From Myxacorys almedinensis A (GTDB lineage: Bacteria > Cyanobacteriota > Cyanobacteriia > Leptolyngbyales > Leptolyngbyaceae): a DNA stretch of 64,000 bases. The position numbers and the translations under genes were made by a program. The DNA is taken from contig NZ_WVIE01000022.1 in the NCBI RefSeq assembly GCF_010091945.1, positions 1 through 64,000 on the forward strand, written 5' to 3'. This document shows positions 1 through 18,263 of the stretch, piece after piece (position 1 is the first letter of the stretch; the number at the start of each line of letters is the position of its first letter). Below the pieces are notes generated by a model. That model worked only from the letters and a program-made list of their open reading frames with translations, was not told the DNA's origin and made no database searches.

Positions 1-60
1 TGCCATCAACCGAAGAAGCCTGCGATTGCCATTGACTATAATTTGCTGCCTTCGCGTTAA
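1..60 (+). CDS. C-terminal end of an ORF truncated by the window edge (...CHQPKKPAIAIDYNLLPSR*), function unknown; would lie inside the putative transposon
   Basis: Frame 1 is open from base 1 to TAA at 58-60; too short to identify. Confidence 0.25.
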   Translation, partial: CHQPKKPAIAIDYNLLPSR

Positions 61-114
61 ACCGAACTGACGTTAAGCTAAAATTTTGGAAAAGTAGGAA
101 GAAATAGGTCTTCA

Positions 115-281
115 GAATTGACACGTATTCCTTCGCTATCTCTCACGAATTGACACACAATTCTTCGCCGCTTCTCACGAATTGATATGTATTTCTCCGC
201 ATACCCTACGAATTGACACGCAATTCTTCGCTATCGTGACATTCAATCCTTCGCTACGGACACTTATTTCTTCGCTCTACA
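115..281. mobile_element. Putative terminal end of a Tn7-like transposon (type V-K CAST or related TnsB/TnsC/TniQ element); body extends to the left, out of the window
   Basis: Six copies of consensus TGACAcgcaATTcTTCGCt at about 115-137, 147-169, 179-201, 210-232, 237-255, 258-276, spaced 32,32,31,23,21 bp; outer boundary CTACA at 277-281 (minus strand 5'-TGTAG); 20 bp from tRNA-Cys 3' end. Confidence 0.6.
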
Positions 282-301: not shown

Positions 302-372
<71 letters not shown>

Positions 373-17603: not shown

Positions 17604-18263
17604 TTACCCTGACGCCAATTTATGAGCATGGCGCGTTGTTTCCGGTAAACGATATTTTGTCGTGCAACCCATAACGTACGCAACGGCAGTTTCTAAACTG
17701 ATGCGATGCCCCGACGAAATGTAGAGCGGTTTGGTTTGAGGACGAGTTCGCAGCACTGCCCCGATCGTATCTCCTTTGTGCTGCAAAGAAACCCATGCTC
17801 CGCGCTGATCGGGAACCTCACCGTGCTTGCCCACCAGTAGCGATTTTGCCACCCCGATCGCAGGCATATTGGTCAACAATCCCACATGGCAGGCAATCCC
17901 AAAACGGCGCGGATGGGCTAACCCTTGCCCATCACAAAGCAATAGATCCGGCGTTGTTTTAACGGTTTCAAGGGCATCTAGCACCGCAGGCACTTCCCGA
18001 AACGAGAGAAAGCCTGGAATGTAGGGAAACGTAGTCGGGCGACGCGCGATCGCATGATCACAAAGCTGCAAGGTTGGATAGGTTAACACCGCCACGGCTG
18101 CCCGCGTAATGGTTCCCTCCTCTTCAAACCCCACATCGATCCCCGCTACATAATTGACAACCCCAAAGCGATCCTGCGTCACTATTTCTTGACGCAACTC
18201 TTGCTGAATGGCAATGGCGGCATCGGTGGTTAACGCCCATTCATGGCGGTGCTGAATTTGCAT
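17604..18263 (-). CDS. nfi: Endonuclease V (deoxyribonuclease V)
   Basis: YVAGIDVGF, PYIPGFLSFREVPAVLDAL, LLCDGQGLAHPRRFGIACHVG. Confidence 0.95.
   Translation of the reverse strand: MQIQHRHEWALTTDAAIAIQQELRQEIVTQDRFGVVNYVAGIDVGFEEEGTITRAAVAVLTYPTLQLCDHAIARRPTTFPYIPGFLSFREVPAVLDALETVKTTPDLLLCDGQGLAHPRRFGIACHVGLLTNMPAIGVAKSLLVGKHGEVPDQRGAWVSLQHKGDTIGAVLRTRPQTKPLYISSGHRISLETAVAYVMGCTTKYRLPETTRHAHKLASG

Follow-up and report, generated by a model that had tools for sequence, protein, structure and literature searches.

What is left of a decayed type V-K CAST stands at a tRNA-Cys gene near the start of contig C14, a reading to which we give a probability of about 0.9. It comprises a left end (LE) within the window (the whole 64-kb stretch of DNA analysed here, the first 64 kb of C14 in a 4.96 Mb assembly of 85 contigs) and very probably also the CRISPR array at the end of contig C17; the two would be separated by insertion sequences, and the machinery of the element was not found. 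The kind of element is already known as the V-K CAST, and this copy of it is decayed. C14 begins inside an IS982-family insertion that cuts the left end at position 77, and the local copy is a relic whose loss of function is well supported.

The left end and its attachment gene

The features at the beginning of the window are as follows.

1–77, plus strand: 3′ end of an IS982-family insertion sequence, the last transposase codons (...CHQPKKPAIAIDYNLLPSR, then stop) being followed by a terminal repeat ending GACGTTA
78–281, minus strand: surviving part of the left end of a type V-K CAST, aligned to the left ends of the cas12k-bearing FACHB-471, G015 and Lyngbya HA4199-MV5 elements
119–137, plus strand: repeat 1, TGACACGTATTCCTTCGCT, a putative TnsB site
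151–169, plus strand: repeat 2, TGACACACAATTCTTCGCC
183–201, plus strand: repeat 3, TGATATGTATTTCTCCGCA
214–232, plus strand: repeat 4, TGACACGCAATTCTTCGCT
237–255, plus strand: repeat 5, TGACATTCAATCCTTCGCT
258–276, plus strand: terminal repeat, GGACACTTATTTCTTCGCT, followed by the CTACA terminus
282–286, no strand: GAGGG, place of the presumed 5-bp target-site duplication, assigned from sequence only
302–372, minus strand: tRNA-Cys (GCA), the attachment gene, transcribed toward the element
336–352, minus strand: anchor protospacer AGGCAGAGGTCTGCAAA in tRNA-Cys, where the 17-nt anchor spacers of G038, G015 and FACHB-471 have their equivalent target
353–356, minus strand: PAM GGTA (GTN type), 71 nt from the terminus of the left end

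The sequence-only reading had described six repeats in one orientation with periods of 32, 32, 31, 23 and 21 bp, and the coordinates, a consensus search and a shuffle test return exactly this: six cores of ~19 bp, all on the plus strand within 119–276, whose starts are spaced by those distances. Allowing up to three mismatches over the 64 kb, the consensus search recovers only four of the six, with 0.00 chance matches expected. A count that needs no consensus gives six similar 19-mers in 115–281, compared with at most three in 300 dinucleotide shuffles. The statement that no repeat lies beyond 281 also stands, as array-quality copies are absent from the remainder of the window; none occurs elsewhere in the genome, and there is no second array.

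The terminus at 281 has the sequence 5′-TGTAGAG and reads leftwards into the element (minus strand from 281: 5′-TGTAGAGCG). A sharp boundary at this point, with TGTAG on the minus strand, had been proposed and is borne out by alignment with the relatives, in which conservation runs through CTCTACA (window 281) and is followed by divergence up to the tRNA. Because conservation stops there, position 281 is, on this alignment, the true boundary of the element. The placement of the array 20 bp from tRNA-Cys is likewise correct, with the terminus at 281 and the gene at 302–372 on the minus strand.

In V-K CASTs the left end sits downstream of a tRNA gene directed at the element, and the published distance from PAM to left end is 46–82 nt (PMC9938897). 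In the window the end lies downstream of a tRNA oriented toward it, and a GTN PAM with its protospacer is found inside that tRNA at 71 nt, within the published range and also within the 58–76 nt that separate GGTA from the end in the eight relatives that have one. Judged by tRNA orientation and PAM distance, which fit the published architecture, the end in the window is the left (cas12k-side) end in current nomenclature. The protospacer at 336–352 of tRNA-Cys varies among genomes (AGGCAGAGG, AGGCAAGGG, AGGCAGGGG) and roughly tracks the presence of an end, a loose correspondence to which lineage effects may contribute.

Relatives with cas12k at the same tRNA-Cys

Membership of the V-K CASTs is argued from the relatives, because the genome itself has yielded neither a V-K transposase nor cas12k. 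Among 42 genomes of the same family searched for the array, several have the whole array or just the outermost repeats beside this tRNA-Cys, and the same array is found there in G015, G029, G027, G038 and G025. In three other cyanobacteria cas12k and CRISPR repeats lie beside the tRNA-Cys array: G038 (G038:C92 is the same contig as Lyngbya sp. HA4199-MV5, L122), G015 (L071) and FACHB-471 (L123). These homologous, cas12k-linked ends support the proposal, already made from the letters of the window, that a V-K CAST end stands beside tRNA-Cys. PADLOC identifies Cas12k in G038/HA4199-MV5 (1.7e-187) and, truncated, in G015 (1.4e-116); the FACHB-471 gene is apparently full-length and is placed as in G015. 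G038 also encodes the V-K transposition proteins TnsB (2e-148), TnsC (6e-27) and TniQ (3e-57), and its contig carries in turn TnsB/TnsC/TniQ, a phosphorothioation-type defence cargo (DndB, DndC, PbeA), cas12k, CRISPR repeats, array and tRNA-Cys.

All three elements share the attachment gene and the left-end repeats with the window, and those of FACHB-471 and G015 share its spacing order as well. Their arrays are spaced by 32, 32, 31, 23, 21, 20 and 21 bp; the window has the first four of these spacings (32/32/31/23) and lacks two repeats before the last two, a deletion of 41 bp after repeat 4 relative to both left ends. Searches of the three elements for a right end, with a left-end matrix and the target-site-duplication motif, found nothing apart from V-K-like repeats that precede tnsB in G015 and are interrupted by an insertion sequence. 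At two further loci (L087 and L098, in G032 and G039) the outermost repeat alone is left beside tRNA-Cys, suggesting more remnants at this site.

In the same three elements, anchor spacers (AGGCARGGGTCTGCAAA) lie behind a truncated repeat ending GAAAG, ~345–368 bp away from the tRNA. They are 17 nt long and match tRNA-Cys at the GGTA PAM, with AGGCAAGGGTCTGCAAA in G038 and AGGCAGGGGTCTGCAAA in both G015 and FACHB-471. The anchor repeat-spacer unit (L076 ~18549, and the equivalents in L071 and L123) has the opposite orientation to the main CRISPR array, whereas in published V-K CASTs the anchor reads toward the left end.

The insertion pathway of V-K CASTs is established. Applied to the intact elements of the relatives, a truncated anchor crRNA together with Cas12k would recognise tRNA-Cys at the GGTA PAM, TnsC and TniQ would then recruit TnsB, and TnsB on the end repeat arrays would insert the element ~58–76 nt downstream; the repeats of the window are presumed to be bound by TnsB in the same way. 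In the present genome the element would have decayed, leaving the left end in the window and very likely the array on C17.

Related arrays also occur away from tRNA-Cys. Five loci (L080 and L083–L086) have a CTACA-type terminus with a spacing of 79/31/95/21 at non-tRNA sites, and no V-K transposase was matched in the DNA examined around them. G002 carries two-ended elements of ~237 bp that are 97% identical (L081:2736-2972 and L082:4425-4661); V-K-type termini bound each of them, a 5-bp duplication is not obvious, and they are possibly miniature derivatives; G025 has a short two-ended arrangement at tRNA-Cys itself. The sequence-only reading had held that the same array at unrelated loci lacking transposase genes would count against it. 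On their face the copies in G002 and at L080 and L083–L086 are of that kind, but their spacing differs or they are short and two-ended, and they resemble other ends or non-autonomous derivatives more than evidence to the contrary. The identification is not weakened by them, since it is the copies at tRNA-Cys that match best, and these are linked to cas12k. As far as their sequences tell, they show that V-K-type ends outlive their own machinery or travel without it.

Such copies bear on two other explanations of the window. It is very unlikely that the array belongs to a non-autonomous or miniature element, made of ends only and moved in trans, rather than to the remnant of a full CAST: the G002 elements do share the terminal sequence, and the G025 arrangement is short, two-ended and at the same gene, but the array in the window is arranged like the long left end of a full element, and the sequence that matches as its continuation is a V-K CRISPR array. 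The arrays at loci without a recognised transposase (L080, L083–L086) could be cited for a repeat family that does not move, or for regulatory repeats lying near a tRNA by chance; the sharp TGT...ACA-type boundary, the same tRNA, the shared spacing and the cas12k linkage in relatives make this highly improbable.

The probable remainder of the element

Positions 1–77 recur at 99–100% identity on the ends of contigs C13, C4, C11 and C22. The IS982 terminal repeat is present at five contig ends, and the bodies of the insertion sequence are absent from the assembly; G020 has a full-length homologue whose product is an IS982-like DDE transposase (Pfam DDE_Tnp_1_3). The other ends of this IS982 were considered as a route to the rest of the element and gave right-end copies only; it was the query with the FACHB-471 array that led to C17 instead.

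This homology query, made with the FACHB-471 array region, finds a V-K CRISPR array of about six repeats at the end of C17 (C17:67193-67590). Its 37-nt repeats end in GAAAG and are homologous to the arrays of FACHB-471 and G015, the identity being 79% across 490 bp for G015 and 70% across 643 bp for FACHB-471; as in those elements, it would lie near the left end. In G015 and FACHB-471 the order is array, ~0.13 kb, left end, with the anchor within that interval. Because array and left end are so close there, C17 and C14 are very likely the two sides of one element, joined across an assembly gap that would contain two insertion sequences; the C17 array segment ends at an insertion sequence other than the IS982 of the window. 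Both this link and the loss of function are well supported but not closed. The only exact match to the anchor in this genome is tRNA-Cys itself, and the place expected for the anchor falls between C17 and C14, within the assembly gap; since that interval would form a very short contig, the missing anchor is uninformative. A one-mismatch match at C1:81392 was rejected as an anchor unit, having no GAAAG repeat before it. The C17 segment also holds a further truncated repeat, GGGAAGTTGAAAG, with ACTAAGCGTGACGATCCCAATGCTTAAGTT after it (L131:17618-17665, with equivalents in L071 and L123), which is oriented toward the left end and kept in three elements; no target of its conserved spacer (ACTAAGCGTGACGATCC) was found in the loci examined.

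The sequence-only reading had placed the element body left of position 1, possibly with tnsB, tnsC, tniQ and cas12k. The direction holds, as the left end reads leftwards, but cas12k and V-K tnsB and tniQ were not found. A query protein that recovers cas12k in the relatives has no match in this genome, and no right end or target-site duplication of the element was found in the 85-contig assembly, which could lack a piece. Left of the array, C17 holds a TrbI-like gene, an insertion sequence and then SnoaL, GNAT and queG-type genes, with no match to cas12k or a tracrRNA; the FACHB-471 region expected to hold the tracrRNA gives one weak 51-bp match elsewhere, and a diverged tracrRNA could escape such a search. 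An intact and mobile element, with its cas12k and transposase genes left of the insertion sequence on DNA missing from the assembly, would be consistent with a contig that breaks at an insertion sequence whose bodies are missing and with completeness statistics that are compatible with a missing piece. We regard it as very unlikely, as C17 runs from the array directly into the genes just named, and the genome, which is listed as 100% complete, yielded no V-K tnsB, tniQ or cas12k.

The profile search that had been suggested for TnsB and TniQ gives matches (PF09299, Mu-transpos_C, and PF06527) confined to contig C8, although both profiles detect the V-K proteins of G038. At C8:5688-10790 (L019) a cluster encodes TnsA-like, TnsB, TnsC and TniQ proteins, the TniQ being closest to the I-B type; it is bounded by TTTGCTCACTTTATGCTTT repeats, lies between two tyrosine recombinase genes and is, by its sequence, a separate Tn7-like element. 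As no other Tn7-like machinery was found in the genome, the end in the window was considered as one of its ends. The C8 flanking repeats are unrelated to those of the window, which have no match in C8:1-20000, and we reject this assignment as most improbable.

A self-matching spacer and comparison with known systems

One spacer of the C17 array (L131:17302-17336, 35 nt) has a 100% match in the window; nothing else in the array matches the chromosome strongly.

17604–18263, minus strand: nfi, endonuclease V (Pfam 5.9e-77), an intact ORF containing the self-target
18092–18126, minus strand: 35-nt protospacer for the C17 spacer, exact match, E 9e-11
18127–18130, minus strand: GGTT (GTN) PAM of the self-target, the bases 5′ of the protospacer

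The target shows no transposon end and its reading frame is open; no convincing phage or plasmid match was found for the spacers of the array. The simplest reading is that the spacer is a piece of captured host DNA which does no harm, there being no Cas12k. It is very unlikely that transcription of the leftover array continues and that the array gained spacers after decay, perhaps through adaptation machinery of the host acting in trans, with a guide acting on nfi by itself or via another effector. Such a perfect self-match beside a suitable PAM is relevant to how CASTs acquire spacers, which has been noted as an open question (PMC11656645).

Taken as a decayed V-K CAST, the element resembles the Tn7-like systems ShCAST, AcCAST and AnCAST in having a left end downstream of a tRNA that points at it, a TGT terminus, an end-repeat array, a GTN PAM that lies in the tRNA as far from the end as is usual, and 37-nt CRISPR repeats very likely near the left end. 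It differs from them in that no V-K cas12k, tnsB or tniQ was found in its genome, and in a left end that is two repeats shorter and cut by an insertion sequence. The FACHB-471, G015 and HA4199-MV5 elements, in contrast to the copy in the window, retain the main array and the anchor unit as well as cas12k, which is truncated in G015. This is a clearly decayed CAST at a tRNA-Cys that several relatives also use for V-K elements and remnants, allowing stages of CAST loss to be compared at one locus. Degenerate cas12k genes and partial elements are reported in the survey of PMC9938897 as well; what sets the present case apart from those degenerate CASTs is a separate leftover CRISPR array with one spacer that matches the host chromosome perfectly.
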